From positions 1 through 64,000 of the forward strand of contig JAKCDC010000005.1 of the NCBI GenBank assembly GCA_021838635.1: 64,000 nt of DNA, in the 5' to 3' direction. This document shows positions 43,119 to 58,356 of the stretch, piece by piece (position 1 is the stretch's first letter; every line of letters starts with the position of its first letter). The DNA comes from Pseudomonadota bacterium (GTDB lineage: Bacteria; Pseudomonadota; Gammaproteobacteria; Steroidobacterales; Steroidobacteraceae). The position numbers were made by a program, and so were the translations under genes. The notes below the pieces were generated by a model, which was not told where the DNA came from, did no database searches, and saw only the letters and a list, made by a program, of their open reading frames with translations.

Positions 43119-43732
43119 ACGCCGCGACCGGCGGCACCCCGCTCGATCTGAACGCCGTGGGACCGGGGTTCAGCGATCCACCGCTCGCCAGCCAGGCGGT
43201 GTTTCGCGCGGCCTTGAATGCGTTCGCGCGACCCGGTCGAATACAGCGGGTGGCGAGCGACGCGCCGCACCCGAGCGGGGCGGCGCCCGCGGCCGCCGCG
43301 CTGCTGCTGGCGCTGCTCGATCCGGATTGCACTTTGTGGCTCGCGCCGCGTTTGGCGCACGGCTCGGCGGCCGCCTGGCTGCGCTTTCACACCGGCTGTC
43401 GCATCGTGAGTGAACTGCGCGAAGCCCAATTCCTCTGGAGCGATGCCGATCAGATGCCGCCGTTCGAACACCTGCCCGCCGGCAGCGAGTTCGAGCCGGA
43501 GACCGCCGCCACCTGCCTCGTTCAAGTGGAGGCACTCGGGGACACCCCAGGCTGGCGGCTGCAGGGGCCGGGAATCGAGCGGACGCAGCCGCTAACGGTG
43601 CGCGGTCTGGACGCGACGTTCCTCGCGCAATGGCGCGCCAACCATGCGGCGTTTCCGCGCGGCATCGATCTGCTGCTGTGTGCAGGCGAGTGCGTGGCGG
43701 GACTGCCGCGCACCACGTGTATCGAGGGCTGA
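43115..43732 (+). CDS. phnH: C-P lyase subunit PhnH
   Basis: PLP-transferase-fold subunit without PLP, part of the PhnGHIJ core. The 205-aa protein has SQAVFRAALNAFARPGRIQRV, LLLALLDPDCTLWLAP, LREAQFLWSDADQMPPFEHLPAGSEFEPE and GPGIERTQPLTVRGL, all family typical. It starts inside the phnG stop and is followed 4 bp later by phnI. Confidence 0.94.
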   Translation: MNAATGGTPLDLNAVGPGFSDPPLASQAVFRAALNAFARPGRIQRVASDAPHPSGAAPAAAALLLALLDPDCTLWLAPRLAHGSAAAWLRFHTGCRIVSELREAQFLWSDADQMPPFEHLPAGSEFEPETAATCLVQVEALGDTPGWRLQGPGIERTQPLTVRGLDATFLAQWRANHAAFPRGIDLLLCAGECVAGLPRTTCIEG

Positions 43733-43736
43733 ACGG

Positions 43737-44825
43737 ATGTACGTTGCCGTCAAGGGCGGAGAAGTCGCGATTCAGAACAGCCACGCGTTGCTCGCCGAGT
43801 TGCGCCGTGGCGATCCGGCGCTGCCGGAGCTCTCCGCTGCGCAGATTCACGCGCAGCTGCGCCTGGCGGTCGACAGAGTCATGAGCGAGGGCTCCCTGTA
43901 CGATCCGGAGCTGGCCGCATTGGCGCTGAAGCAGGCCGCCGGGGACGTCGTCGAGGCCATATTCCTGCTGCGCGCCTACCGCACGACGCTGCCGCGATTC
44001 GGCTACAGCGTGCCGATCGAGACGACGCGGATGCGTCTGTGGCGACGTATCTCGGCCACCTTCAAGGATTTGCCCGGCGGACAGATTCTCGGCCCGACCT
44101 ACGACTACACCCAACGGCTGCTGGATTTTGCGCTGCTGGCCGGAACACCCGTGCCTCCCGCACCGCGCGCACCGGCAGCGACCACCGCGGGCCTTTGCCC
44201 GGGCGTCCTCGACCTGCTCGATCGCGAGGGGCTCATCGAGCCGCAGCCGCTCTCTGCCGCGGATCCCGAGCCGATCGATCTGACCCGTGAGCCGATGCGC
44301 TTCCCGGCTCCGCGAGCCGCTCGCCTGCAAAACCTCGCGCGGGCCGACGAAGGCTTTCTGCTCGCGTTGGCCTACTCCTCGCAACGCGGCTATGCACACA
44401 CGCATCCCTTTGCCGGAGAAGTGCGTTTCGGGAGCGTCGAGGTGGAAGTGATCCCGGAAGAACTCGGCTTCCCGGTGTCGATCGGCGATGTGGCGCTCAC
44501 TGAGTGCCAGATGATCAATCAGTTCGCCGGCAGCGCACGGCAACCCCCGCAATTCACTCGCGGTTACGGACTCGCCTTCGGACACAGCGAGCGCAAAGCG
44601 ATGGCGATGAGTCTGGTCGACCGAGCGCTGCGCGCGCCGGAGCTCGGCGAGGCTATAGAGTCGCCCGCACAGATGGAGGAGTTCGTGCTCTCACACAGCG
44701 ACAATCTGGAAGCCTCCGGGTTCGTTCAGCATCTGAAGCTGCCGCATTACGTCGACTTCCAATCCGAGCTCGAACTGGTGCGGCGCATGCGTGCGGCGGA
44801 CACCGTGCAGCAGAGTGAGTCATGA
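43737..44825 (+). CDS. phnI: C-P lyase subunit PhnI
   Basis: Core subunit implicated in the nucleosidase/ribosyl-transfer step that displaces adenine from ATP. The start MYVAVKGGEVAIQNSHALL is diagnostic. Also present are VMSEGSLYDPELAALALKQAAGDVVEAIFLLRAYRTTLPR, YSSQRGYAHTHPFAGEVR and TECQMINQFAGS. The 362-aa length is normal. It overlaps phnJ by 4 bp. Confidence 0.95.
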   Translation: MYVAVKGGEVAIQNSHALLAELRRGDPALPELSAAQIHAQLRLAVDRVMSEGSLYDPELAALALKQAAGDVVEAIFLLRAYRTTLPRFGYSVPIETTRMRLWRRISATFKDLPGGQILGPTYDYTQRLLDFALLAGTPVPPAPRAPAATTAGLCPGVLDLLDREGLIEPQPLSAADPEPIDLTREPMRFPAPRAARLQNLARADEGFLLALAYSSQRGYAHTHPFAGEVRFGSVEVEVIPEELGFPVSIGDVALTECQMINQFAGSARQPPQFTRGYGLAFGHSERKAMAMSLVDRALRAPELGEAIESPAQMEEFVLSHSDNLEASGFVQHLKLPHYVDFQSELELVRRMRAADTVQQSES

Positions 44826-45715
44826 GCGATACGGCGGCGATCTTTGCGGCGCGCGACCCGCACGTCAACTTTGCGTACCTCGATGAGCGTACCAAGCGCA
44901 TGATCCGCCGCACCCTGCTCAAGGCGGTGTGCATTCCCGGTCACCAGGTGCCGTTCGGTTCGCGCGAGATGCCGTTGCCGTACGGCTGGGGAACCGGCGG
45001 TATCCAGGTCACGGCAGCAATCCTTGGGCCCACCGACACGCTGAAGGTCATCGATCAGGGCTCCGATGACACCGTGAACGCGGTGAACATCCGCCACTTC
45101 TTCCAGCGCACCGCTGGGGTCGCGGTCACCACCGATACCCGCGCGGCAGACATCATCCAGACCCGGCACCGGATTCCCGAGACCCCACTGCGCGAGGGAC
45201 AGATCCTCGTGTACCAGGTGCCGGCGCCTGAACCGTTGCAGCGGCTCGAGCCGCGCCGCAGCGAGACCCGCACGCTGCACGGGCTCGCCGAGTACGGCCT
45301 GATGCACGTGAAACTCTACGAAGACATCGCCCGCTACGGCCACATCGCCACGACCTACGACTATCCGGTGCGGGTCAATGAGCGGTATGTCATGTCGCCC
45401 TCACCGATTCCGAAATTCGACAATCCCAAGATGCACCGGTCCGCCGCCCTGCAGCTGTTCGGCGCCGGTCGCGAGAAGCGCATCTACGCTGTCCCGCCCT
45501 ACACCGCGGTCGCCAGCCTCGCATTCGAGGACTATCCGTTCTCGATTCAGCGTTGGGCGAGCGCCTGCGCCCTGTGCGGCGCGACGGACAGCTTCCTCGA
45601 TGAATGGGTCACGGATGACCGTGGCACGAGGATGTTCGTCTGCTCCGACTCGCACTATTGCGCCACGCGGCAAGCGCGCGCGACGGCCCCGGAGCCCTCC
45701 CATGGCTCTAAGTGA
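44822..45715 (+). CDS. phnJ: Alpha-D-ribose 1-methylphosphonate 5-phosphate C-P lyase PhnJ
   Basis: Radical-SAM enzyme that cleaves the carbon-phosphorus bond. The unusual cluster cysteines are Cys249, Cys252 and Cys274 (CALC then 21 residues then C), with the substrate-thiyl Cys280 after SDSHY. The glycyl-radical glycine is Gly40 in VCIPGHQVPF. All catalytic residues are therefore present. The 297-aa length is slightly over the E. coli enzyme. Its end overlaps phnK by 14 bp. Confidence 0.97.
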   Translation: MSDTAAIFAARDPHVNFAYLDERTKRMIRRTLLKAVCIPGHQVPFGSREMPLPYGWGTGGIQVTAAILGPTDTLKVIDQGSDDTVNAVNIRHFFQRTAGVAVTTDTRAADIIQTRHRIPETPLREGQILVYQVPAPEPLQRLEPRRSETRTLHGLAEYGLMHVKLYEDIARYGHIATTYDYPVRVNERYVMSPSPIPKFDNPKMHRSAALQLFGAGREKRIYAVPPYTAVASLAFEDYPFSIQRWASACALCGATDSFLDEWVTDDRGTRMFVCSDSHYCATRQARATAPEPSHGSK

Positions 45716-46490
45716 CCCCAACGCCGCGCTCCTGCAGGTGCGTGCCGTGCGCCGATGCTACGGTGCCCGAGCCGCCGTGGATCAGGTGTCCTTCGACTTG
45801 TGGCCCGGCGAGGTGCTGGCGATCGTCGGGGAGTCCGGGTCGGGCAAGAGCACGCTGCTGCAGGTCCTCTCCGGTCTGCACGCACCGGATGACGGTGAGG
45901 TGCTCTTCAACCTGCGCGACGGCGGGGTGCACGACATCTACCGCCTCACCGAGGGACGGCGCCGCGCGCTCACCCGCACCGATTGGGGCCTGGTGCACCA
46001 GAGTGCCGCGGACGGACTGCGCATGAACGTCTCGGCCGGCGCCAACGTGGTCGAGCGGCCCATGGCGCTCGGCGAACGTCACTACGGCCGGCTGCGCCGC
46101 ATGGCGCTCGAGTGGCTCGAGCGCGTCGAGATCGATCCGAGCCGCATCGACGATACGCCGGCGACATTCTCAGGGGGCATGCGTCAGCGACTGCAGATCG
46201 CCCGCAACCTGGTGACGCTGCCCCGGCTCGTCTTCCTCGATGAGCCGACCTCGGGCCTCGATGTGTCGGTGCAGGCCCGGCTGCTTGATCTGCTGCGCCA
46301 GCTCACGCGCCAGCTCGGGCTCGCCGCCGTACTGGTCACCCACGACCTCGCGGTGGCCCGACTGCTGGCGGACCGCATGATGGTCATGCAGGGTGGCCGG
46401 GTCGTCGAGGCGGGGCTCACCGACCAACTGCTCGATGATCCGTCCCACCCCTACACCCAGCTGCTCGTCGCCTCGGTGCTGCCGCCATGA
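45702..46490 (+). CDS. phnK: Phosphonate C-P lyase ABC-type ATPase PhnK
   Basis: ABC ATPase that docks on the PhnGHIJ core rather than on a membrane transporter. Walker A is [17 protein letters not shown], the signature FSGGMRQRLQIARNL, Walker B LVFLDEPTSGLD, and the H-loop LVTHDL. The ATG at 45702 gives 262 aa. The C-terminal SHPYTQLLVASVLP is shared with oligopeptide-type ATPases but is normal for PhnK. It overlaps phnL by 4 bp. Confidence 0.94.
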   Translation: MALSDPNAALLQVRAVRRCYGARAAVDQVSFDLWPGEVLAIVGESGSGKSTLLQVLSGLHAPDDGEVLFNLRDGGVHDIYRLTEGRRRALTRTDWGLVHQSAADGLRMNVSAGANVVERPMALGERHYGRLRRMALEWLERVEIDPSRIDDTPATFSGGMRQRLQIARNLVTLPRLVFLDEPTSGLDVSVQARLLDLLRQLTRQLGLAAVLVTHDLAVARLLADRMMVMQGGRVVEAGLTDQLLDDPSHPYTQLLVASVLPP

Positions 46491-47257
46491 ACGACTCCGT
46501 CGCACCGAGGCTGCCGCTCTTGCAGCTCGAGGCACTCGCCAAGCAATTCACCCTGCACCATCAGAACGGGATCGTGCTGCGCGTCCTGGACAACGTCCAC
46601 CTCAGCATCCACCCGGGTGAGTGCGTGGTTCTCGATGGGCCCTCCGGGACGGGCAAGAGCACGCTGCTGAAGCTGATCTATGCGAACTATCGCGCCTGCG
46701 CCGGGCATATCCGGCTGTTCCCCGGCACGCCGCAGGAACTGGAACTCACCGGCGCCTCGCCGCGCGCCGTCGTCGCCGCCCGACGCGACACCATAGGCTA
46801 CGTCAGCCAGTTCCTGCGCGTCATTCCGCGGATCGCAGCACTGGACATCGTGGCCGAGCCGCTCCTCGGCCCTGAAGAACCGCACGGCGGCGCACCCCTC
46901 GAGCGCATCCTGGCACCGGACAGCGACGCGCTACAGAGCGCGCGCGCTGAAGCCGCACGGTGGCTGCAGCGTCTGAACATCGGCCGACAGTTGTGGCCCC
47001 TCCCCCCGGCAACATTCTCCGGCGGCGAACAGCAGCGCATCAACGTGGCCCGCAGCCTGATCAAGCCGCGTCCCCTGCTGCTCCTAGATGAACCGACCGC
47101 ATCGCTCGATGCCGCCAACACCGAGGTGGTGCTGCAGATGATCAATGAAGCCCGGGCACGCGGCGCGGGGATCATCGGCGTGTTCCACGATCCGATGATT
47201 TCGGAAAAAGTGGCGACACGCCGAGTCCGCATCGAGCCGTTCAGGACCGCGGCATGA
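46487..47257 (+). CDS. phnL: Phosphonate C-P lyase ABC-type ATPase PhnL
   Basis: Second ABC ATPase of the C-P lyase complex. Walker A is GPSGTGKSTLLKLIYANY, the signature FSGGEQQRINVARSL, and Walker B LLLLDEPTASLD. The PhnL-specific insertion DTIGYVSQFLRVIPRIAALDIVAEPLL is present. The 256-aa length is slightly long through a Gly/Pro-rich loop. It is coupled to phnK and phnM by 4-bp overlaps. Confidence 0.94.
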   Translation: MNDSVAPRLPLLQLEALAKQFTLHHQNGIVLRVLDNVHLSIHPGECVVLDGPSGTGKSTLLKLIYANYRACAGHIRLFPGTPQELELTGASPRAVVAARRDTIGYVSQFLRVIPRIAALDIVAEPLLGPEEPHGGAPLERILAPDSDALQSARAEAARWLQRLNIGRQLWPLPPATFSGGEQQRINVARSLIKPRPLLLLDEPTASLDAANTEVVLQMINEARARGAGIIGVFHDPMISEKVATRRVRIEPFRTAA

Positions 47258-48408
47258 GCGCGACGCTGATCACCAACGCCCGGCTGGTGCTGGACAACGA
47301 AATCCTGCTCGGTACGCTCGGATTCGACGCCACCGGCATCACCTCGATCGACACCGGTCGCACATCGGTACCGGGCGCACGCGACCTCGAAGGTGATCTA
47401 CTCGCTCCCGGACTGATCGAGCTGCACACCGACAATCTGGAACGACATCTGATGCCCCGACCCAAGGTGAGCTGGGCGGAGGTTCCCGCCCTGCTCGCGC
47501 ATGATGCGGAAGTCGCCTGCGCGGGCATCACCACCGTGCTCGATGCGCTCGGGGTCGGCGAGACGGACAGCGACAGCGTGCGCGGCAGCGCCTGGGACAC
47601 TCTGCTCTCGAGCCTGCAGCACTGTAGCGAGCAAGACGCTCTGCGCGCCGAGCACTTCCTGCACGTGCGCTGCGAGCTGCCGGCGCCCAACACCGTAGAG
47701 CTGTTCGAGCCGTTTCGCGGTCATCCGCGCCTGCGCCTCGTATCATTGATGGATCACACGCCCGGCCAGCGACAGTGGGAGAACGTCGAGCACGCGCGCA
47801 TCTACTACACGGGCAAGAAGGGATGGAGCGCGGCGAAGTACGAGGCGAGAGTGGCCGATGCTCTGGAGATGCAGCGGCGCTATGCCGAGCCGCACCGTCA
47901 GCATTTCGTGGACTACTGCCGCCGCCAGGACATCGCACTGGCGAGTCATGACGACACCACGGCCGAGCACGTGCAGGAGGCGTACCGTGACGGGGCCGTG
48001 ATCTGCGAGTTCCCGACGACCCGACCCGCTGCGCAAGCCGCACGGGACCTTGGTCTTGCCACGGTCCTCGGCGGCCCGAACGTGGTGCGCGGTGGCTCGC
48101 ATTCCGGGAACGTTGCGGCCGCGGAACTGGCACGCGACGGACTGCTCGACATCCTGTCGTCCGACTACGTACCGGGCAGTCTGATCAGCGCCGTATTCGG
48201 CTTGCACCAGGAGCTCGACCTCCCGCTCGCCCAGTGCTTCGCGATGGTCACGCGCCAGCCGGCCGACGCACTCGGACTGAACGACCGGGGACGGCTCGCC
48301 GTCGGGTTACGCGCCGATCTGGTCCGCATCCGCCCCCTGCTCGATGCGGCGAGCCGCGTTCAGCCGCTGGTGCGCACGCTGTGGCGTCAGGGCCGCCAGG
48401 TCGCCTGA
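47254..48408 (+). CDS. phnM: Alpha-D-ribose 1-methylphosphonate 5-triphosphate diphosphatase PhnM
   Basis: Amidohydrolase-fold enzyme that removes pyrophosphate before C-P cleavage. Metal-site motifs are APGLIELHTDNLERHLMPRP, SLMDHTPGQRQW, ALASHDDTTAEHVQEA, PNVVRGGSHSGN and LSSDYVPGSL. The 384-aa length is normal. It overlaps phnL by 4 bp and is the last gene of the uninterrupted phnGHIJKLM core. Confidence 0.95.
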   Translation: MSATLITNARLVLDNEILLGTLGFDATGITSIDTGRTSVPGARDLEGDLLAPGLIELHTDNLERHLMPRPKVSWAEVPALLAHDAEVACAGITTVLDALGVGETDSDSVRGSAWDTLLSSLQHCSEQDALRAEHFLHVRCELPAPNTVELFEPFRGHPRLRLVSLMDHTPGQRQWENVEHARIYYTGKKGWSAAKYEARVADALEMQRRYAEPHRQHFVDYCRRQDIALASHDDTTAEHVQEAYRDGAVICEFPTTRPAAQAARDLGLATVLGGPNVVRGGSHSGNVAAAELARDGLLDILSSDYVPGSLISAVFGLHQELDLPLAQCFAMVTRQPADALGLNDRGRLAVGLRADLVRIRPLLDAASRVQPLVRTLWRQGRQVA

Positions 48409-49129: not shown

Positions 49130-49439
49130 CTCTGATCACGGATCACGGCGCGTGCCGAAGCTCGTTGCGCTTCACATATCGGTCACGTTGCGCACCTACC
49201 ATCGAGCGGGTCGTCGGCTGAACTCCTGATTCAACCGAACGACGAGCCACAACGGAACGCCGGCGTGACGTGGTCGCGAAACATGTCCGCTTCGCGTCAA
49301 CATTCAACGCGTGTGGACTTCTGCCCGTCCGAGAGCAGAGCTCCACCGTGGGCCGCAGGCGCCGTACTCGGAGCGCTCGAGCACCTTGCACGGGTCGGAT
49401 CGTTCGCCCGCGCCGGCGGCGGCCCGGAGGAGTCGGATC
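49130..49439 (+). other. 310-bp gap upstream of the MFS gene, no gene seen
   Basis: No convincing coding region, RNA or PhnF-type site was found. The MFS reading frame is open through part of it, but without transporter-like sequence. A short direct repeat, GATCACG (twice at about 49134-49147), is the only structure noticed. The gap is large enough for a separate promoter for the transporter. Confidence 0.5.
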
Positions 49440-50867
49440 GTGACGCAGATCGAGTCCTACCTTGATGAACTCAGTCCGAGGCGGGCGCACGTGCGCTTGA
49501 TCTTCAGTTCCGGTCTGGGTGTCTTCCTCGACGGATACGACTCGGCGATGATGGCCGTGGCCATCGTGTTCATCGCCCCCGCCTGGCACCTGACACCCGC
49601 GGCGCTCGGCCTTCTGGCTGCCTCCACGCTGCTCGGGGCGGTGATCGGGGGAGCCGTCGGCGGACGTTGTGCCGATCTGTATGGACGCAAGTGGCTCTAT
49701 ATGATCGACATTGCGACGTTCTTCGTCGCAGCGCTGCTGTCGGCGGTGGCCTGGAACTTCGCCTCCCTGTTCATCTTCCGCATGCTGGTCGGTGTCGGCA
49801 TCGGCATCGACTACCCGCTGAGCGCGACTTTCCTGGCGGAGTTCGCACCGCGTACACGGCGCGGCTCGATGATGACGTGGTCGTTCGGCTTGTTCTTTTA
49901 TGCCGGCAGCGTCGCGGCGATGCTCATCGGCTTTCTGCTTTCACACCTCGGTCCGTACGCGTGGCGCATTCTATTCGCCTCCGGCGCGGTGCCGGCGCTC
50001 GCGCTGCTGATCCTGCGTCGCACGCTGCCGGAGTCACCTCGCTGGCTGCTGCGCAAGCGCACCCCCGATCAGGCTGTGGCCGCCTTGCGCAAATTCCAAC
50101 CGGACGCCGACCTCGGGGAGCTGCCGGCTGCCGTGGGAACACACGCCCCCCGAGAAAGCGCGCCTCAGGGACGCTGGCGCGAGCTGTTCACGCGACCGTA
50201 CCTGCGGCGGACTGCCCTGATCACCTTACCGTGGTTCCTGATGGACATGGTGGACTACGGTTTCAGCATCTATATTCCGACGCTCCTCATCGCGTTCGGC
50301 ATGCGGTCCTTCGGCGGCAGCATTCTGCTCTCGGCGGCGCTGTCGAGCCTCGGCACGCTGGGCTTTGTGTTCGTCGCCGGCTGGATCGAACGCTGTGGCA
50401 GGATCCGCGCTCAGAGCATGGGCTTTCTCGGCCTCGCCGCCGGCATGGCTGCGCTGGGACTGATCTCCATGAGCGGCGCAGACGCGATCGTTCCAATCGC
50501 CGCGTGCATCCTGTTCGTGAAGCTCGCCAATGCGTTTCCGGACATCACCACCTGGATGCTCCCGGTCGAGCTGTATCCGACTGACCTGCGGGCCTCCGCA
50601 CACGGTCTGGCCACATCGTTTTCACGGATCGGCGCGGCCACGAGCGTCTTTCTCTTTCCGATTCTGCAGCGTTTGTGGGGGATCGGACCGGTGCTGCTGG
50701 TGATCGCGGCGGCTCAGCTGACCGCCTCGCTCCTGACGGTGCTGACCGGCCAGGAATCAGCCGGCCGCAGCCTAGAGGAGATCGCACTAGGACACTCTCG
50801 GCCCTCCGTGGTCCCGCCGGGGCCAGCGCCACGCGCACTGTCGGCACCGCTCTTGCCGGAAAAATAG
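49440..50867 (+). CDS. MFS transporter, metabolite/phosphate:H+ symporter-like, phosphonate-locus associated
   Basis: Twelve-helix inner-membrane carrier of 475 aa. MFS signatures include the loop 2-3 GGRCADLYGRKWLYMID and RMLVGVGIGIDYPLSATFLAEFAPRTRRG; the second closely resembles the phosphate:H+ symporter signature GIGGDYPLSAT. PVELYPTDLRASAHGLATSFSRIGA comes in the second half. The GTG at 49440 has GGAGGAG 6 bp upstream. It follows the phn genes in the same direction, and no phnCDE ABC importer is present, so it is a candidate phosphonate or phosphate-ester importer. A sugar or aromatic-acid carrier cannot be excluded. Confidence 0.85.
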   Translation: MTQIESYLDELSPRRAHVRLIFSSGLGVFLDGYDSAMMAVAIVFIAPAWHLTPAALGLLAASTLLGAVIGGAVGGRCADLYGRKWLYMIDIATFFVAALLSAVAWNFASLFIFRMLVGVGIGIDYPLSATFLAEFAPRTRRGSMMTWSFGLFFYAGSVAAMLIGFLLSHLGPYAWRILFASGAVPALALLILRRTLPESPRWLLRKRTPDQAVAALRKFQPDADLGELPAAVGTHAPRESAPQGRWRELFTRPYLRRTALITLPWFLMDMVDYGFSIYIPTLLIAFGMRSFGGSILLSAALSSLGTLGFVFVAGWIERCGRIRAQSMGFLGLAAGMAALGLISMSGADAIVPIAACILFVKLANAFPDITTWMLPVELYPTDLRASAHGLATSFSRIGAATSVFLFPILQRLWGIGPVLLVIAAAQLTASLLTVLTGQESAGRSLEEIALGHSRPSVVPPGPAPRALSAPLLPEK

Positions 50868-50928: not shown

Positions 50929-52239
50929 CTAGCGGGACTCTCCCTGCAGACGGGCGATCAGACTGCGCAGAAAGACCCGATTGAAGCGCAGCTGGCAGGA
51001 CACCGACACCTGCTCGAGCTGGGTGGCGCTCACTTTCAGTACGGTCACCGCAGTCACGGCGCACACCGTCGCCGTGCGTTTCGCTCCGGGGACGTAGCTC
51101 GCTTCCCCGAAGCAATCACCGGTCTCGAGCATGGCGATTTGAGCCCCACGCCGCTGCACGGCGCAGCGACCGGAGACCAGAATATAGAAGCGGTCATCGA
51201 GTTCGCCCTCGCGCACGATCTCCTCCCCGACCGCATACTGCTGCCAGGCGCTCGCGTGCAGCACCTCGGTGACCTCGGGGTGCGAGAACTCATGGAAGAA
51301 CTTCAGCCGCCGCAGAACGCCGAACTGCTCCTGCAGGTTCAGGCGCAAATTGCTCTGGCGCAGCCGATGGTGCGCACGCGCCAGCTCCGCGGCGAACTCA
51401 AGCCCGGTGCGCTGGCGCTTCTGTGGATCCTTCTGCAACGCCGTCACGACGATGTTCTCGAGTTCCTCGGACACATCGGTACGCACTTTGTGGATCGGCG
51501 GCGGGGTGGCATAGACGATCTGGTGCAGAAGCTTCTGCAGATTTCCGGCCCGAAACGGCCGTGTCCCGGTGAGCAGCTCGTACATCACCGCGCCGAGGGA
51601 GTAGATGTCCGAACTCGCGGTCAAATCCAGGCTTTGCACCTGCTCCGGCGACATGTACGAAGGACTGCCGGCGATACCCTCGATACGCGAGATATCCGCA
51701 TCCGAGACCAGCGCGATGCCGAAGTCGATGATGCGCACTTCGCCTTCCTGCGTAAGCAGCAGGTTCGAGGGCTTGATGTCACGGTGAATCACTCCGCGCG
51801 TGTGCGCATAGTGCAGCGCTTTGGCGCACTTGAAGATGATTTCGATGACGTCATTCAGCGGAAGCAGGTTGTCAGGACGGCAATAGGTCGTGAGCGTGCG
51901 CGCATGGTGGACGTACTCGCTGACGATGTAGCAGCGCCCGTTCTCCTCGCCGGCATCGTAGATCGGCAGCACGTACGGGTGCTGCAGCATGCCGACCAGA
52001 TGCGCTTCGGAGAGGAACATCTTGCGCGCAGCGCGGGCGCGCTGATCGTCCGCGCCCGTGTCGACGTTGTAGACCTTGATGGCTACATCGCGCCCATAGT
52101 AGGCGTCATGCGAAAGGTAGACCACGCCGGTGCTGCCGCGCCCGACTTCCTTGATGACTTCGTACTTGCCGATCCGCTCCGGAGCGCTGCGCTCACTGGT
52201 GCGCGGATGCACGGCGGATCCTGGAGCGTGGGCGGGCAT
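50929..52239 (-). CDS. Ser/Thr protein kinase with C-terminal cyclic-nucleotide-binding domain
   Basis: Cytosolic Hanks-type kinase (about 25-290) fused to a cNMP-binding domain (about 315-420). Kinase motifs are complete: glycine loop GRGSTG (34-39), Lys55 (VAIKVY), HRDIKPSN (152-159), DFG (172-174), SPSYMSPEQ and a C-lobe Arg. The binding domain has FYILVSGRCAVQRRG, FGEASYVPG (377-385) and the phosphate-binding Arg388 (KRTAT), so cAMP or cGMP binding is plausible. No transmembrane helix or PASTA domain is present. The ATG at 52239 gives 436 aa. It lies 118 bp downstream of thiL in the same direction; whether it belongs to that operon is open. Confidence 0.88.
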   Translation of the reverse strand: MPAHAPGSAVHPRTSERSAPERIGKYEVIKEVGRGSTGVVYLSHDAYYGRDVAIKVYNVDTGADDQRARAARKMFLSEAHLVGMLQHPYVLPIYDAGEENGRCYIVSEYVHHARTLTTYCRPDNLLPLNDVIEIIFKCAKALHYAHTRGVIHRDIKPSNLLLTQEGEVRIIDFGIALVSDADISRIEGIAGSPSYMSPEQVQSLDLTASSDIYSLGAVMYELLTGTRPFRAGNLQKLLHQIVYATPPPIHKVRTDVSEELENIVVTALQKDPQKRQRTGLEFAAELARAHHRLRQSNLRLNLQEQFGVLRRLKFFHEFSHPEVTEVLHASAWQQYAVGEEIVREGELDDRFYILVSGRCAVQRRGAQIAMLETGDCFGEASYVPGAKRTATVCAVTAVTVLKVSATQLEQVSVSCQLRFNRVFLRSLIARLQGESR

Positions 52240-52357
52240 GGTTCGCAGCGAGTGGTGTTGCACACTGCAGCATAGGGCCGGAGCGCACCGATGCGCTGTG
52301 ATGTGCCCCATGAATTGGCCGACCGGATCGCGGCGCACGCTTTACATAACGACGCCC

Positions 52358-53323
52358 TCACGGGCCGGCAAAATGATCGTATCCCGGTGCCGCCACGGTT
52401 TTCACCCCGCTCTCGTCCCGCACGTGCGCTCCGGTCTCTACGCGGATGGTCCCGATGCGCGTGTAACCCCAGTGCGCGCTCGGCAGGTCGGCTTCGAGCC
52501 GCTCCAGCCGCTGCACAGGAACCGTGAAGCACAGTTCATAATCGTCGCCGCCGGTGAGCGCGAAGGATCGGGCCCGCTCGGACCCCAGTGCACGCAGCGG
52601 CGCCGACAACGGCAACCGGGCCGCCTCGAGCTCGACCCCGCAGCCGCTGGCGCGTGCCAGCTTCAGCGCATCGGCCAGCAGTCCGTCCGAAACGTCGATG
52701 CACGCGCTCGCATACCCTCGCAACCGCGCTCCGAGCGCGACGCGCGGGGCGGGAAAGAGGAAGCGCTCACGCAGCGAATCGCAGTCGCCCTCGGCGGTAA
52801 GACGGCCCTGCTCCAAGGCCAGCCCCGCGGCCGCGTCGCCCGGTGTCCCGGAGACGAACAGCGCGTCCCCCGGGGCGGCGCCACTGCGCCGCAGCGCACA
52901 CCCCGCAGGCACCCAACCGAGCAGCGTCACCGCGACCGCGAGCGGGCCCTGGGTGGTGTCACCCCCAACCAGCGTGACCCCGTGCTGCAGCGCCAACGCG
53001 CTGAATGCCGCGGCAAATCCGTCCAGCCACTCGGCCTGGGCCGCCGGCAGCGTCAGCGCCAGCAGCGCCCAGGCAGGTTGAGCGCCCATGGCGGCCAGAT
53101 CGCTCAGATTCACCGCCAGCGCCCGGTGTCCGACCGAGTCCGGGCGGCAGCCGCGCGGGAAATGCACTCCGTCGACGAGCGTGTCGACTGCGGCCACGAG
53201 CGTCATCCCTGGCGGGCACTCGAGCAGTGCCGCATCGTCACCGACACCGACACACACATCGGAGCGCACCGCACCACTGCGGCGGAAATAGCGATCGATC
53301 AGATCGAACTCAGACAGTGTCAT
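52358..53323 (-). CDS. thiL: Thiamine-monophosphate kinase ThiL
   Basis: Phosphorylates thiamine monophosphate to the active diphosphate. The AIR-synthase-fold protein has FDLIDRYF, VGVGDDAALL, VDTLVDGVHFP, GHRALAVNLSDLAAMGA, LVGGDTTQGP, CIDVSDGLLADA and LTGGDDYELCFTVP. The 321-aa length is normal. It follows nusB in the classical ribH-nusB-thiL order; the usual next gene pgpA is replaced here by the Ser/Thr kinase. Confidence 0.95.
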   Translation of the reverse strand: MTLSEFDLIDRYFRRSGAVRSDVCVGVGDDAALLECPPGMTLVAAVDTLVDGVHFPRGCRPDSVGHRALAVNLSDLAAMGAQPAWALLALTLPAAQAEWLDGFAAAFSALALQHGVTLVGGDTTQGPLAVAVTLLGWVPAGCALRRSGAAPGDALFVSGTPGDAAAGLALEQGRLTAEGDCDSLRERFLFPAPRVALGARLRGYASACIDVSDGLLADALKLARASGCGVELEAARLPLSAPLRALGSERARSFALTGGDDYELCFTVPVQRLERLEADLPSAHWGYTRIGTIRVETGAHVRDESGVKTVAAPGYDHFAGP

Positions 53324-53349: not shown

Positions 53350-53796
53350 CTAACGTTCCGCCGGACGCAGTTCGTGCGCGGCTCTATCGAGCACAGCGTT
53401 GACGTACTTGTGCCCGTCGGTCGCTCCGAATCGCTTCGTCAGGGAGACCGCCTCATTGATGGCGACCTTGTACGGCACGTCCGATCGGTGCGCCAGTTCG
53501 TACAGACCGATGAGCAACGCCGCATGCTCGACCGGATCGAGTAATGCCGGACTGCGGTCGATGAACAGCGCGAGCTGCTCATCGAGGGCCGTACGCGAGG
53601 TACAGATCCCCTCGAGCAATTCTCGGAAGTACTCGCGGTCGGCGCGCGGCATGTCCTCGGCCGCGCCGAATTCCTGCACCAGATCCTGCCAGGGACACTC
53701 GTTGATCTGCCAGCGGTACAACGCCTGCAGCGCCAGCTTGCGCGCCATGGCGCGTTGGCGAGAAAACGCATGTGTCGAGGAGTGCACGTCCATCAC
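53350..53796 (-). CDS. nusB: Transcription antitermination factor NusB
   Basis: Helical RNA-binding protein that joins S10 (NusE) at boxA in rRNA transcripts. Seen are RQRAMARKLALQALYRWQIN, REYFRELLEGI, LDPVEHAALLIGLYELAHRSDVPYKVAINEAVSLTKRFGATDGHKYVNAVLD. The GTG at 53796 overlaps the ribH stop (GTGA), and an ATG follows immediately at 53793. The 148-aa length is typical. Confidence 0.96.
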   Translation of the reverse strand: MMDVHSSTHAFSRQRAMARKLALQALYRWQINECPWQDLVQEFGAAEDMPRADREYFRELLEGICTSRTALDEQLALFIDRSPALLDPVEHAALLIGLYELAHRSDVPYKVAINEAVSLTKRFGATDGHKYVNAVLDRAAHELRPAER

Positions 53797-54269
53797 GATC
53801 CGAGCTGGGCGAACAGGTCGGCCATTTCCAACGCCGCTTCCATGGCCTCCCCGCCCTTGTCACCCTGGCCGGTCGCGGCCCGTTCGATCGCCTGCTCGAC
53901 GGTCTCGACGGTCAGCACCCCGAAGCTGACCGGCACCAAGGTCTCAAGCGCCGTACGCTGCAGGCCCCCCGCGCACTCGCCCGCGACGTACTCGAAATGC
54001 GGTGTGCCACCGCGGATCACACACCCCAGCGCCACCACCGCATCATAGCGGCCGCTCGCGGCCAGCTTGCGCGCCGCCACCGGCAGCTCGAACGCCCCCG
54101 GCACGCGCACCACGAGCACATCCTCGAGCACTCCGCCATGCCGCGCCCAGGCGGCCTCGGCGCCCTTGAGCAGGCTCGCTACGATGAACTCGTTGAATCG
54201 CGCTGCAACCACGGCCACTTTGCGGCCGCGGGCAGTGCACTGTCCTTCGATGAGTCGCACGGTGCTCAC
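53793..54269 (-). CDS. ribH: 6,7-dimethyl-8-ribityllumazine synthase RibH
   Basis: Condenses the ribBA product 3,4-dihydroxy-2-butanone 4-phosphate with the pyrimidine from RibD-dependent steps, giving lumazine. Motifs: VVAARFNEFIVASLLKGA, VRVPGAFELPVAARKLA, VVALGCVIRGGTPHFEYVAGE and PVSFGVLTVETVEQAIERA with catalytic His in GGTPHFE. The GTG start overlaps the ribBA stop (GTGA). 158 aa. Confidence 0.97.
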   Translation of the reverse strand: MSTVRLIEGQCTARGRKVAVVAARFNEFIVASLLKGAEAAWARHGGVLEDVLVVRVPGAFELPVAARKLAASGRYDAVVALGCVIRGGTPHFEYVAGECAGGLQRTALETLVPVSFGVLTVETVEQAIERAATGQGDKGGEAMEAALEMADLFAQLGS

Positions 54270-55432
54270 GCGTCTTCTCCGACGTACCCGTCAATTTCCA
54301 GCCCGAAGGCCGAGATGCCGTGAATTTGCTTCGGCGCCGACAGCACGCGCATCCGCCGCACGCCGAGGTCCTTCAGGATCTGCGCGCCGATGCCGAAGGT
54401 CTTCAGCACGCCCCCGTCCCGGCGGGCGGCACGGGCCGAGCCGTCGGCCTCGGGCGGCGCGCCGAGTGAGCGGACCGAATCGAGCAGATCGTTCGGCGCC
54501 TCGCGCTCGCGCAGAATCACGATCACGCCGGAGCCAGCGCTCGCAATGCGCTGCATCGCTGCCCGCAGCGTCCAGGCGAGCGGATCGGCGCGGATGCCGA
54601 GCAGATCGCGCAGCGGATCAGCCAGGTGCACACGCACCAGCGGCGGTTCGGGTCCCTCGAGCGTCCCGCGGACCAGCGCCAGATGGACCTCTTCGCCCAC
54701 GCGGTCCTCATAGGCGAACAGGCGAAAATCGCCGAATTCGGTACCGACTGGCTGCTCGGACAGGCGTACCACGGAGCGTTCGTTGCGCAGGCGGTAGCGG
54801 ATCAGGTCGGCAATGGTGCCGATCTTCAGGCCGTGCGCCACGGCAAAGGCGTGCAGCTGCTCGCGCCGCGCCATCGAGCCATCCTCGTTCATCAGCTCGG
54901 AAATCACCCCCACCGGCTGCAGGCCGGCGAGGCGGCACAGGTCCACGGCCGCCTCGGTGTGACCGGTGCGCACCAGTACCCCGCCGCGTCGCGCACGCAG
55001 CGGAAAGATGTGCCCGGGACGGGCGAAATCGGCCGCCCGCGCCTCGGCGCGGGCGAGGGCGCGGATCGTGACCGCACGGTCGCTGGAGGACACCCCGGTG
55101 GTGGTACCCTCGACGGCGTCCACCGAAACGGTGAACGCGGTGCGATGCGCCTCGCTGTTGTGGGTGACCATCTGCGGCAGCTCCAGCCGCTCGAGCCCCG
55201 CCTCCTCCATGGGCACGCAGAGAATTCCGCTGGTGTGGCGGATCATGAAGGCGACCGCCTCGGGCGTGGCGCACTCGGCCGCCATGATCAGGTCACCCTC
55301 GTTCTCGCGATCCTCGTCGTCCATGATGATGACCATGCGCCCGGCTCGCAGGTCGGCGAGGATTTCCTCGACGCTGTTCAATTTGACGCCGGGCGGCGGG
55401 GCCTTACCGGAGAGGGGGAGGACTTTGGACAT
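54266..55432 (-). CDS. ribB: 3,4-dihydroxy-2-butanone 4-phosphate synthase with degenerate GTP cyclohydrolase II domain (RibBA-like)
   Basis: The N-terminal RibB domain (about 18-218) is intact: MDDEDRENEGDLIMAAE, RTAFTVSVDAVEGTTTGVSSSDRA, HIFPLRARRGGVLVRTGHTEAAVDL and GVISELMNEDGSMAR. It makes DHBP from ribulose 5-phosphate. The C-terminal RibA-like domain (about 220-388) is recognisable by fold order (TFGIGAQILKDLGVRRMRVLS). The segment that should read RVHSECLTGD...RCDCG is instead RVHLADPLRDLLGIRADPL (267-285), with none of the three zinc cysteines. GTP cyclohydrolase II activity is therefore not expected, and a separate ribA should exist elsewhere. It precedes ribH with a GTGA overlap. 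Confidence 0.92.
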   Translation of the reverse strand: MSKVLPLSGKAPPPGVKLNSVEEILADLRAGRMVIIMDDEDRENEGDLIMAAECATPEAVAFMIRHTSGILCVPMEEAGLERLELPQMVTHNSEAHRTAFTVSVDAVEGTTTGVSSSDRAVTIRALARAEARAADFARPGHIFPLRARRGGVLVRTGHTEAAVDLCRLAGLQPVGVISELMNEDGSMARREQLHAFAVAHGLKIGTIADLIRYRLRNERSVVRLSEQPVGTEFGDFRLFAYEDRVGEEVHLALVRGTLEGPEPPLVRVHLADPLRDLLGIRADPLAWTLRAAMQRIASAGSGVIVILREREAPNDLLDSVRSLGAPPEADGSARAARRDGGVLKTFGIGAQILKDLGVRRMRVLSAPKQIHGISAFGLEIDGYVGEDA

Positions 55433-55498
55433 CGCGCGCGGCCTGGTGCGTTGGGTCCGCTAGTATACCGTGCGGCCCGCCTCCCCCGGCGCCGGACG

Positions 55499-56026
55499 CT
55501 AGCCCCGCGGCGGGTGCTCCGCTTTGAGCAAAGGCAGCACGACGGCCTGAAGCTGGTCGGCGGTGACCCCCGTCAGCCCGCCAAGCAGCCGCGCCCGGAT
55601 CACCCCACGGGCATCGATGACATAGGTCATTGGCACTGCCAGCGGCTCGCCGAATCCGTCCGCCCGGGCCGAGCGGGCGAGTGCCGCCGGATAGGTGAAT
55701 CCGCGCAGCGCCTGCTCGATGTGCGCGCGGCTTGCAGCCCGATCGATGCTGAGCGCAATCAACGCCACGCCACGCCGGTGGAAGCGCCGATAGAACGACT
55801 GCAACACCGGCATCTCGGCGTGGCACGGCGAGCACCAGGTGGCCCAGAAAGTGACCAACACCACCCGACCGCGGTCCCGGGCCAGATCGAATGTGCGGCC
55901 GCTGAGTTCGCGCACGATCAGCGCCGGAGCAGGCTGTCCGATGCGTGGGACCGCCGCGCTGGCCGCAGCCACCGAGAGCGCAAGCGTGACTGCAAAGAGG
56001 CGCAGCCGGCACGGCGTACGGTCCAT
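55499..56026 (-). CDS. TlpA/ResA-like periplasmic thiol-disulfide oxidoreductase
   Basis: Thioredoxin-fold protein exported by an N-terminal signal sequence (LRLFAVTLALSVAAASAA). The active site is WCSPC in VLVTFWATWCSPCHAEMPVLQSFYRRF. The cis-Pro is in PLAVPMTYVIDARG. The 175-aa length fits TlpA. Its ATG overlaps the ribE stop by one base (TGATG), so it is translated with the riboflavin genes, an unexpected insertion between ribE and ribBA. The partner protein is unknown. Confidence 0.88.
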   Translation of the reverse strand: MDRTPCRLRLFAVTLALSVAAASAAVPRIGQPAPALIVRELSGRTFDLARDRGRVVLVTFWATWCSPCHAEMPVLQSFYRRFHRRGVALIALSIDRAASRAHIEQALRGFTYPAALARSARADGFGEPLAVPMTYVIDARGVIRARLLGGLTGVTADQLQAVVLPLLKAEHPPRG

Positions 56027-56634
56027 CAGGCCCCGTCCCGGCCCGTGGCGAGCAGCCGCTCCACGTAGCGCGCAATCAGGTCGATTTCGATATTCACGTA
56101 ATCGTCAGGCTGAAGTCTGCCCAGCGTCGTCACCTCGCGTGTGTGCGGAATCAGGTTCACACGGAACGTGGTGCCACGCACGAGATTGACCGTGAGACTC
56201 ACACCATCGATGGCGATCGAGCCTTTGCGCGCAACGTACCGTGCGAGTTCATCCTCGGCAAGCGCAATGTCCATGCGCCAGGAGCGGGCCTCCTCGGCGA
56301 TCTCCACGATCTGCCCCAGACCATCGACGTGGCCGCTCAGCAAGTGGCCGCCGAGCGCATCACCGGCCTTCAGCGCCGGTTCCAGATTAACGTGCGCGCC
56401 GATAGCCAATTGACCGAGCGTGGTCAGCCTCAGCGTCTCACGCGACACATCGGCTCGGACGGTGTCCTCTTGCAGCTCCACCACGGTGAGGCAACAGCCC
56501 TGCACGCAGAGGCTATCCCCGACGCGCAGCGCCGCCGGGTCGATCCGTCCGAACGTGAATCCCATGCGGTGGTCGCCATCGCGCTTCTCGCGCTCGACCA
56601 AACGCCCCATTTCCTGAACGATTCCGGTGAACAC
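56026..56634 (-). CDS. ribE: Riboflavin synthase alpha subunit RibE
   Basis: Dismutates two lumazines to riboflavin. Two tandem lumazine-binding barrels are visible: the first with FTGIVQEMGRL, LRVGDSLCVQGCCLTVVEL and NLEPALKAGDALGGHLLSGHVDGLG, the second with GSIAIDGVSLTVNLV and NLIPHTREVTTLG. The GTG at 56634 begins VFTGIVQ, matching family N-termini, and gives 202 aa. It starts one base after the ribD stop. Some databases call this gene ribC. Confidence 0.96.
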   Translation of the reverse strand: MFTGIVQEMGRLVEREKRDGDHRMGFTFGRIDPAALRVGDSLCVQGCCLTVVELQEDTVRADVSRETLRLTTLGQLAIGAHVNLEPALKAGDALGGHLLSGHVDGLGQIVEIAEEARSWRMDIALAEDELARYVARKGSIAIDGVSLTVNLVRGTTFRVNLIPHTREVTTLGRLQPDDYVNIEIDLIARYVERLLATGRDGA

Positions 56635-56635
56635 T

Positions 56636-57790
56636 TCAGTTGTCCTCTTGGGAAGGCCGTCGCGGCCGCAGGCGCACGCGCAGATCCGCGCCGATCGGCT
56701 CGCTCGAGATGATGTCAAACCAGGCCGAGTCCTGCAGCCGCTCAAGCGCCGGCAGGAGCGCAAGCGGCCGGCCCTGCGGCCCCAGCAGCCGCGGCGCCAC
56801 GTACAGGATCAGTTCGTCCGCCCAACCTTCCGCCAGCAAAGCGCCGGCCAGTGTCGGCCCGGACTCGACCCACAACTCATTGATTTCGCGATGTCCCAGC
56901 GCCCCGAGCAGCGCCGCCAGCGAAACCCGCCCGGCGGCGGCGGTCGGCAGTGTTTCAACGGTTGCGTGCATTTCGAGCGCGGCGCGGCGGCGGGCATAGG
57001 CCTGCGTCTCGGCCGGCAGCGGTGCGCCAGCCACCACCAGGACCGGCCCCGGGACCGAGAACAGCCGGGCCTGCGGCGATGTGCGCAACTGCGAGTCGAG
57101 CACGACCCGCAACTGCGGTGGACGGGCACCGCCGGGCGGGTCTTCCAGGCGGACATCGAGGCGCGGATCGTCGGCGAGCACCGTGCCGATGCCGGTCAGC
57201 ACGGCGCCACTGCGGGCCCGCCAGAGCTGCACGTCCTGGCGCGCAGCCGGTCCCGTGATCCAGTGACTCTGCCCATCGGCGAGGGCCGTACGGCCATCGA
57301 GGCTCATGGCGAGCTTCACCCGCACCCAGGGACGCCCCGTCCGCATCCGCTTGAGGAATCCCGCATTAAGCTCGGCCGCTTCAGTCTGCAGGAGACCCGA
57401 CTGCACCGGCACACCACGTTCACGCAGCAGTCGCGCCCCCCCGCCATTGACCCGGGGGTTCGGATCCTCAAGTGCGAATACAACGCGCCCGATGCCGGCA
57501 TCGAGCAGCGCCTGAGCGCAGGGCGGCGTACGGCCGTGATGACTGCAAGGTTCGAGCGTGACGTATGCCGTAGCGCCCGACGCAGCAGCGCCCGCCGCGC
57601 GCAGCGCATGAACCTCCGCGTGGGGTTCCCCGGCACGCACATGCCAGCCTTCTCCGATGATCTGCTCGCCGCGCGCGATGACGCAGCCGACTCGCGGGTT
57701 CGGATGCGCGGTCTGCAGACCGAACGCAGCCAGCTCGAGCGCTCGGGCCATCGCGCGACAGTCGAACGCGGAAAACGGCTCCTCGCTCAT
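56636..57790 (-). CDS. ribD: Bifunctional diaminohydroxyphosphoribosylaminopyrimidine deaminase / reductase RibD
   Basis: Two successive steps of riboflavin synthesis. The N-terminal deaminase zinc site is HAEVHAL with [11 protein letters not shown]. The C-terminal reductase has [43 protein letters not shown] and [14 protein letters not shown]. The 384-aa length is normal. It overlaps nrdR by ATGA and runs into ribE with a 1-bp gap. Confidence 0.96.
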
Positions 57791-58356
57791 GCGTCGTGGC
57801 CGGTCGTATCCGGCTCATCAGGCTCCGGTGGCAGCAGCGAGAGCTGCTCGCGCCGCGGTGCGGGCGGCGGCGCGGCGCGCTTGCGCGCGCGCGGCGGCGC
57901 TGGGCGTGCATCGCGCAGCTTGCGGATTTCCTCGTGAAACGCCTCAATATCCTCGAAGTGCCGATACACCGATGCGAAGCGTACGTAGGCGACCTCATCG
58001 AGCTGGCGCAACTCTTCCATGACCAGCTCTCCGATCGCACCGGAGGGGATTTCCCGCTCCCCCTGCGTGCGCACCTTGTGGGCGACGTGACTCACCGCAG
58101 CGTCGATCGCTGCACGGGCCACGGGCCGTTTCTCCAGCGCCTTTTCCATGCCCGCACGCAGCTTGGCCTCATCGAACGGCTCGCGGCGCCGATCGCCCTT
58201 GACGACCATCGGCATGACCAGCTCGGCGGTTTCGAAGGTCGTGAACCGCTCACCGCAGGCCAGACACTCGCGCCGGCGGCGGATCTGCGCCCCGTCGCTG
58301 GCAAGCCGCGAATCGGTGACCTTGGTCTCGACGTGACCGCAGAACGGGCAATGCAT
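57787..58356 (-). CDS. nrdR: Transcriptional repressor NrdR
   Basis: ATP/dATP-sensing repressor of ribonucleotide reductase genes. The zinc ribbon is [17 protein letters not shown] with [12 protein letters not shown]. The ATP-cone follows ([28 protein letters not shown]). [19 protein letters not shown] ends the conserved region. A Pro/Arg-rich tail of about 40 residues extends it to 189 aa, against about 150 in E. coli. It sits between glyA and ribD, the conserved position. Confidence 0.96.

Follow-up and report, generated by a model that had tools for sequence, protein, structure and literature searches.

The gene at positions 50929–52239 on the minus strand of the window, as we term the entire 64,000-nucleotide stretch under study, raises the question of whether a bacterial Ser/Thr kinase might be controlled by a cyclic nucleotide bound within the same polypeptide. 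Its 436 aa product (the gene and protein are hereinafter KcNB) displays a fusion of a kinase domain to a cyclic-nucleotide-binding domain (cNBD). Bacterial cAMP is known mainly for its role as a transcription signal acting via CRP, and no bacterial Hanks kinase is known to be gated by cAMP or cGMP. A sequence-only reading of the locus, which gave the coordinates exactly and left the strand unstated, had deemed such nucleotide-gated kinase activity plausible.

Domain architecture and conservation of KcNB

The KcNB frame runs from an ATG at 52239 to a stop codon ending at 50929 and stays open further 5′ as far as a GTG at 52338. This extension, together with conservation that starts only around residue 20, leaves some doubt as to which start codon is used. 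The genome from which the window derives has a single full-length copy of KcNB, and three of its other kinases match it at 29–32% identity in the kinase domain only. Another kinase of the same genome (L002) carries N-terminal HEAT repeats. Pfam places a Pkinase domain at residues 26–276 ahead of a cNMP_binding domain at residues 333–411, in agreement with the domain order that had been read from the sequence. The first of these domains (51412–52164, minus strand; PF00069, E = 1.9e-52) shows the VAIK Lys55, the αC Glu78, the HRD Asp154 and the DFG Asp172, and the PDB chains closest to it, both by sequence and by fold, are those of PknB. This fold and the four catalytic positions place it among the PknB-like kinases of the Hanks type, and phosphotransfer activity is predicted. 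An AlphaFold2 model of the whole protein, built on 40 aligned sequences, has a mean pLDDT of 84.1 and a pTM of 0.77, with the pLDDT falling below 50 in the N-terminal tail (residues 1–16) and in a part of the activation loop (residues 181–189).

The C-terminal domain (51007–51243, minus strand; PF00027, E = 4.3e-16) scores 59.1 bits against a cut-off of 27.5 and was also recovered in the whole-genome family search. Modelled alone, residues 300–436 attain a pLDDT of 91.5, and the fold matches of this model comprise CRP-like regulators, PKA-R, PKG, the cNBDs of channels and that of PycTIR, the last having the highest query TM-score (0.82) among the 50 matches listed. In a comparison of the cNBD profile with the PDB by sequence, PKG and PKA-R chains come out on top, the score of each chain being summed over several domains. 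Together, the Pfam match and the fold argue for placing the domain in the CNB superfamily. Its phosphate-binding cassette, containing Glu379 and Arg388, spans residues 374–391 (51067–51120, minus strand) and is the best-conserved part of the cNBD; the C-terminal lid or dimer helices span residues 405–432 (50944–51027, minus strand), with a helix at 413–434 in the model.

We assessed conservation in two sets of homologues. The close set consists of 100 distinct relatives with at least 64% identity to the window protein, obtained from 109 near full-length loci by removing nine duplicates (a fragment, L089, was dropped); 30 of them come from the loci of the order-genome search and 70 from the genome-contig search. 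The other set is made up of 40 distinct homologues, all from genomes beyond the order to which the window's genome belongs, with two loci of that order (L123, L124) excluded. All 100 close relatives share Lys55, Glu78, the HRD motif, Lys156, Asn159, the DFG motif, the FGE of the cassette (377–379), Gly385, Arg388 and Ala390; the five residues singled out in the sequence-only reading, namely Lys55, Asp154, Asp172, Glu379 and Arg388, are thus retained where it had placed them and are identical across the close set. Outside the order, Lys55, Glu78, Asp154, Asp172, FGE (with Glu379) and Gly357 are kept in 40/40 homologues and Arg388 in 37/40. The DFG motif is replaced by DFS in 27/40 of the outside-order homologues (e.g., L128–L135 and L137–L139), with the other catalytic residues checked being intact.

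Averaged over pairs of sequences, identity in the cassette amounts to 0.83 in the close set and 0.65 outside the order; the corresponding values are 0.81 and 0.56 in the lid helices, 0.79 and 0.54 in the kinase and 0.66 and 0.46 in the barrel, and the N-terminal tail stands at 0.23 in the close set. It is the ligand cassette, therefore, that is held tightest, which would be surprising if the cNBD were no more than a scaffold. Both domains are detected by Pfam in 40/40 of the family-alignment sequences scanned, a count of presence rather than of copies per domain. The kinase-then-cNBD order is kept in the homologues, a constancy that is partly a consequence of searching with a fused query, but all matches in the unfiltered list for the class, apart from a fragment (G318), span both domains.

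Both Glu379 and Arg388 had been described as phosphate-binding. For Glu379 this does not hold, as the Glu of the cNBD cassette contacts the ribose in PKA and CRP structures. For Arg388 the description is apt, the cassette Arg being the phosphate contact according to the relevant passages of a 2007 survey (PMC2246266). The canonical cassette is given there as FGE[LIV]AL[LIMV]..R; at residue 380 the close relatives of KcNB have Thr, Ala or Ser where the survey has Leu, Ile or Val, and the residue preceding Arg388 is mostly Lys, as against its Pro or Val. Tyr382 stands at the position of the canonical Leu in 100/100 close relatives, and outside the order this position is Tyr in 32/40 and Phe in 7/40. 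The KcNB cassette hence matches the canonical motif in its FGE and Arg throughout the close set and deviates from it at positions 380, 382 and 387. Gly357, which by alignment we take to be the glycine of the β2–β3 loop, is likewise present in 100/100 close relatives. Passages of the same survey describe this loop glycine as co-conserved with the phosphate-binding Arg in cAMP binders (PMC2246266). The combination of an intact kinase, intact cassette residues and a kept domain order makes nucleotide gating plausible.

Genomic setting and distribution of the family

KcNB is found directly downstream of thiL (52358–53323, minus strand; Pfam AIRS and AIRS_C), with 118 bases between the thiL stop and the KcNB ATG. 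Further upstream on the same strand follow nusB, ribH, ribBA, a tlpA-like gene, ribE, ribD and nrdR (53350–58356), in an order kept in relatives; the genes from nusB to ribE were named by Pfam and ribD and nrdR by eye from the ORFs. The TlpA-like gene (55499–56026, minus strand; thioredoxin family, AhpC-TSA/Redoxin), lying between ribE and ribBA, is seen at the same place in a number of close relatives and is missing from many remoter loci. On the other side of KcNB, a convergent gene for an MFS transporter (49311–50867, plus strand; Pfam Sugar_tr and MFS_1) was not counted in the system; a homologue is seen in only 1/80 loci (L086), with the downstream sequence being short in several loci. 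The window also contains, at 43644–48408 on the plus strand, a run resembling C–P lyase (phosphonate) genes along with two ABC ATPases, all named by eye.

Across 80 loci of named genomes, thiL lies upstream of the kinase on the same strand in 76, and in the other four (L064, L066, L097 and L104) the match starts at most 212 bases from the contig end. The full order across loci is nrdR-ribD-ribE-ribBA-ribH-nusB-thiL-(pgpA)-kinase. Among the genes picked at each locus, the nearest upstream one is thiL in 53 loci, pgpA following thiL in 21 and nusB in two, with none in four. The identity of the thiL cluster is backed by a match to the window's ThiL in each of its 74 members, and that of the pgpA cluster by Pfam for one of its members. 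KcNB had been said to stand where pgpA usually follows thiL. It does directly follow thiL in the window, but this is no simple replacement: the thiL-pgpA-kinase arrangement of 21/80 loci rules out substitution of pgpA by the kinase as a general rule. Taken with this arrangement, the lack of any PgpA match in the window's genome (96.5% complete) suggests that pgpA was probably lost there from between thiL and KcNB.

Downstream of the kinase, on its strand, some close relatives have a histidine kinase gene (19/80 loci; e.g., L045, L055 and L067) or a response regulator gene (10/80 loci), instead of which the window has the convergent MFS gene. Farther downstream, on the other strand, we observe folE2 and dxs in 39/80 loci each and a polyprenyl synthetase gene in 21/80. 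No cyclase or phosphatase gene adjoining KcNB was detected in the Pfam-scanned sample of neighbor clusters. Outside the order, ribH, thiL and pgpA precede the kinase in 6/20 neighborhoods, with nusB in five and ribBA in five of those. Kinase–cNBD paralogues also occur as near pairs about 3–5 kb apart round pgi, CBS-domain or uncharacterised genes (L150–L158), several of them near SCO1, PCu(A)C and psd genes.

Of the genomes sampled from the order, 108/147 have the family (threshold 1e-60, with the best match of each at 3.3e-118 or lower), as do 64/369 of those sampled from the class (threshold 1e-80). In some genomes the copy number is at least four, which is also as many candidates as were scored in each genome. 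In the phylum sample, 6/398 genomes match KcNB; the match of one (G701) is confined to the kinase part, and the other five, that of the window's own genome included, are full-length and all come from the same class. Plasmid and phage records gave no match over at least 80% of the KcNB length. KcNB is, then, no isolated case but belongs to a stable family, one that is common within the order and also extends well beyond it in the class.

Cyclases and the proposed gating by cAMP

The window's genome encodes a CRP scoring above the curated cut-off (308.9 vs. 266 bits), and cAMP is thus probably in use there. It also codes for two PP2C phosphatases and, among other cNBD proteins, for one combining two cNBDs with a rhodanese domain (L172, G000:C53) and for a patatin phospholipase with an NTE-type domain and a cNBD (L170, G000:C93). 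Two class III cyclases are encoded on contigs other than that of KcNB. One of them (G000:C35; L121:1202-2251) has its class III cyclase domain (E = 4.7e-20) N-terminal to an FHA domain (E = 1.5e-13), a reader of phosphothreonine. This FHA cyclase, encoded by a separate gene and found in the same genomes as KcNB, is a candidate partner.

Mostly as a single copy, the FHA cyclase is found in 105/147 genomes of the order, of which 104 also have the kinase; 38 genomes have neither, four have the kinase only (G040, G049, G071 and G101) and one has the cyclase only (G123). The joint absences are spread over several groups, for example, families f12 and f13 and genus g6 inside family f1, the other sampled genera of which have both genes. 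In the class sample (n = 369), both are present in 36 genomes, the kinase only in 28, the FHA cyclase only in 44 and neither in 261. These class figures count the 80 genomes with full-length cyclase matches at about 1e-50 or better out of 97 that match at 1e-20, with the 17 weaker or partial matches treated as absent; a hand count of all 97 gives 41/64 kinase-positive and 56/305 kinase-negative genomes. The co-occurrence tables rest on search tallies. As the genomes are related rather than independent, the association is inflated and its Fisher P overstated, and we treat the co-occurrence as a lead, not proof. As a control, class III cyclases of any kind were counted in the order; they are present in 113/147 genomes, including 107/108 of those with the kinase, and hence the FHA cyclase is not the sole possible source of the nucleotide. 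The kinase is found in 104/105 genomes with the FHA cyclase, in 3/8 whose class III cyclases are all of other kinds and in 1/34 lacking any; of the five kinase-free genomes in the second of these groups, three belong to one genus. On these small numbers, there is a lead that the kinase is associated more closely with the FHA cyclase than with class III cyclases at large.

By their conserved residues, both halves of the FHA cyclase look functional. Asp61, Asp105, Lys101, Asp158 and Arg169 (numbering of the first row of the alignment) and, in the FHA domain, Gly264, Arg265, Ser279, Arg280, His282, Asn300 and Gly301 are kept in 24/24 aligned sequences, the metal-binding residues of the cyclase and the core residues of the FHA domain being among them. 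However, residue 165, presumably the position of the transition-state Asn, is His in 29/33 FHA cyclases of the order, the window's own included, and outside the order it is Asn in 29/30 kinase-positive and 24/24 kinase-negative sequences. A Lys and an Asp constitute the ATP-specifying pair of class III cyclases in the relevant passages of PMC1262709, and the retention of this pair suggests that the enzyme is likely to act on ATP.

The FHA cyclases of the order show an acidic Thr-Ser-Met linker between the cyclase and FHA domains. Such a linker recalls the phospho-switch of GarA and OdhI, and the protein looks like a phospho-switch cyclase family in its own right, its acidic linker and near-invariant Thr being seen in class genomes with and without the kinase. 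Against the expectation that genomes without the kinase would have lost the linker Thr, it is present in 33/33 sequences of the order and, outside it, in 30/30 kinase-positive and 23/24 kinase-negative sequences. This set comprises 87 distinct sequences from 90 loci (three duplicates removed) and covers 24 of the 44 kinase-negative genomes with the cyclase. Since the Thr is kept without the kinase, it is no specific sign of KcNB, and for a phosphorylation loop between the two proteins the evidence is that of co-occurrence and of the FHA domain itself. A cyclase match in another genome (G262:C20:104005-104823) lies in an open frame of 24301 residues, perhaps masked sequence.

Among the 28 class genomes that have the kinase and no full-length FHA cyclase, 20 encode another class III cyclase and two only a class I cyclase (G206 and G211). 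In the remaining six (G263, G378, G474, G293, G404 and G385), i.e., 6/64 kinase-bearing class genomes, neither class I nor class III was found, and the same is true of one order genome with the kinase (G071). The kinases of four of these six were aligned (L136, L140, L147 and L166), and all keep the FGE and the Arg of the cassette. These genomes have either a cyclase of another class or a kinase whose pocket can accept a different ligand.

We posit, with a probability of about 0.5, that KcNB is a PknB-type Ser/Thr kinase set by a 3′,5′-cyclic nucleotide, most likely cAMP, in its C-terminal cNBD, and that it possibly forms a loop with the FHA cyclase. The cAMP would be made by a class III cyclase, in the order mainly by the FHA-linked one. 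On binding of cAMP to Glu379 and Arg388, the lid helices (405–432) would close and the hinge (286–320) would shift, whereby the kinase domain might be either released or blocked. KcNB would then phosphorylate itself and its targets; these may include the FHA cyclase, with the FHA domain reading the mark and thus closing a feedback loop. What the data establish is the fusion, the intact active-site and cassette residues, their conservation, the synteny, the co-occurrence with the FHA cyclase and the presence of CRP; what we infer is the identity of the ligand, the effect of its binding on the kinase and the direction of this effect, the targets and the loop. Counting for a cAMP-gated kinase are the kept active-site and cassette residues along with Gly357, the tight conservation of the cassette and lid helices relative to the barrel, the PKG and PKA-R matches of the cNBD, the co-occurrence with the FHA cyclase, the residues that this cyclase keeps and the presence of CRP. 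Counting against are the non-canonical cassette, the 28/64 class kinase genomes without a full-length FHA cyclase (six of them with neither a class I nor a class III cyclase found), the 44 class genomes with the FHA cyclase and without the kinase, the association of the kinase in the order with class III cyclases at large, the linker Thr kept where there is no kinase and the His at residue 165 of most order FHA cyclases. The more elaborate proposal of a pathway from cAMP to phosphorylation independent of PKA and PKG, leading from the FHA cyclase via cAMP and KcNB to read-back by the FHA domain as a two-gene loop that is core in the order, is one that we advance only tentatively.

Other explanations of the same architecture have to be weighed against this. 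The cNBD could accept a ligand that is not a product of class I or III cyclases, for instance some metabolite, another nucleoside or a cyclic pyrimidine, which would then gate the kinase instead. The invariance of the non-canonical Tyr382 in the close set and the kinase genomes without a detected class I or III cyclase, whose aligned kinases nevertheless keep the FGE and Arg, are in line with such a pocket, as is the top fold match to the cNBD of PycTIR, which we take to be a Pycsar protein. Precedents for cNBDs with switched ligands are mentioned in passages on CooA and CprK (PMC2246266) and on the trypanosome PKA, with its changed ligand (PMC6440977). Yet KcNB keeps Arg388 and Gly357 as cNMP binders do, 58/64 class kinase genomes have a class I or III cyclase and the order-level link is a strong one to a cyclase with the Lys and Asp, so that we regard an alternative ligand as conceivable but not probable. 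If the cNBD were a fixed dimerisation or docking module and the kinase activity ligand-independent, the high conservation of the lid helices would be readily accounted for, as CRP dimerises through such helices and KcNB could do likewise. However, the best-conserved part of the domain is the ligand-contact cassette and not the helix alone, and we hold a purely structural role to be unlikely.

The neighborhood admits a different emphasis, namely that KcNB is a conserved operon passenger, its role being to regulate growth rate or the synthesis of riboflavin and thiamine, or to report on them, with nucleotide gating being secondary. Its position after thiL in 76/80 loci, and after ribH, thiL and pgpA in 6/20 outside-order neighborhoods, fits this idea, but there are paralogues that lie next to other genes (pgi, psd, SCO1 or CBS-domain genes), which indicates that the neighborhood is not essential to this type of protein; we consider the idea quite improbable. 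An effector of the Pycsar kind, to which the PycTIR match might also be taken to point, we deem barely credible. The hallmarks of Pycsar are a cyclase gene beside that of the effector and a patchy or mobile distribution; KcNB has housekeeping neighbors on its thiL side in 76/80 loci, is present in 108/147 order genomes and has the cyclases of the window's genome on other contigs. More generally, this synteny and the broad distribution in the order, along with the absence of phage or plasmid records matching at least 80% of the protein, largely rule out a mobile or defence gene.

Relation to known kinases and cNBD proteins

If KcNB is indeed gated by cAMP, it would constitute a direct route from cAMP to phosphorylation and an independent invention in bacteria of the principle of PKA and PKG. 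It resembles PKG in having a kinase and a cNBD in one chain, and the PDB chains at the top for its cNBD profile are PKGs, that of Plasmodium vivax included. However, PKGs have several cNBDs ahead of an AGC kinase, whereas KcNB has a single Pfam cNBD placed C-terminal to a PknB-type kinase. PknB chains lead its fold search, with no PKG among the 50 matches listed, and its best kinase matches are likewise PknB, which is a statement of nearest matches rather than a formal kinase-group classification. Of the suggestion that KcNB is a bacterial analogue in reverse of PKG, the analogy and the kinase-then-cNBD order stand; the PknB type of the kinase and the number of domains rule out a rearranged PKG. 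In sequence and fold, KcNB is a kinase of bacterial type with a common cNBD attached, and not a shuffled PKG. With PKA it shares a cNBD close in sequence to that of RI-alpha and the FGE and Arg of the cassette, but it differs in being one fused chain with one cNBD and in the Tyr at the cassette Leu. Its Hanks-type kinase domain is common to PknB and StkP, from which it differs in carrying a cNBD and in having no PASTA domain detectable by Pfam; against the NCBIfam PASTA-kinase model, it scores 258.7 bits, with the cut-off being 450.

In the open-access literature, to which our search was confined, no study recognisable as being on the KcNB family was found. The main-text passages on cyclic nucleotides in Krupa and Srinivasan 2005 (PMC1262709) describe no kinase–cNBD fusion, and in PMC1183210, cNMP occurs in the reference list only. 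A further candidate precedent, PMC6504805, was a false lead, its relevant passages dealing with GAF and a histidine kinase. By contrast, the passages of the 2007 survey state that protein phosphorylation may involve CNB domains and note that some bacterial ones (Other_bacterial in its Table 1) are attached to "kinases" (PMC2246266). These passages name no family, domain order, context or function for such fusions, and their consensus has the usual Leu in place of the Tyr of KcNB. Similarly, according to the corresponding passages of a 2024 survey, the accessory domains of Ser/Thr kinases in planctomycetes, which are another phylum, include a cyclic nucleotide-binding domain (PMC11032199); these kinases are compared here by description only. 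The combination of a kinase with a cNBD as such has, therefore, already been noticed in bacteria (PMC2246266, PMC11032199).
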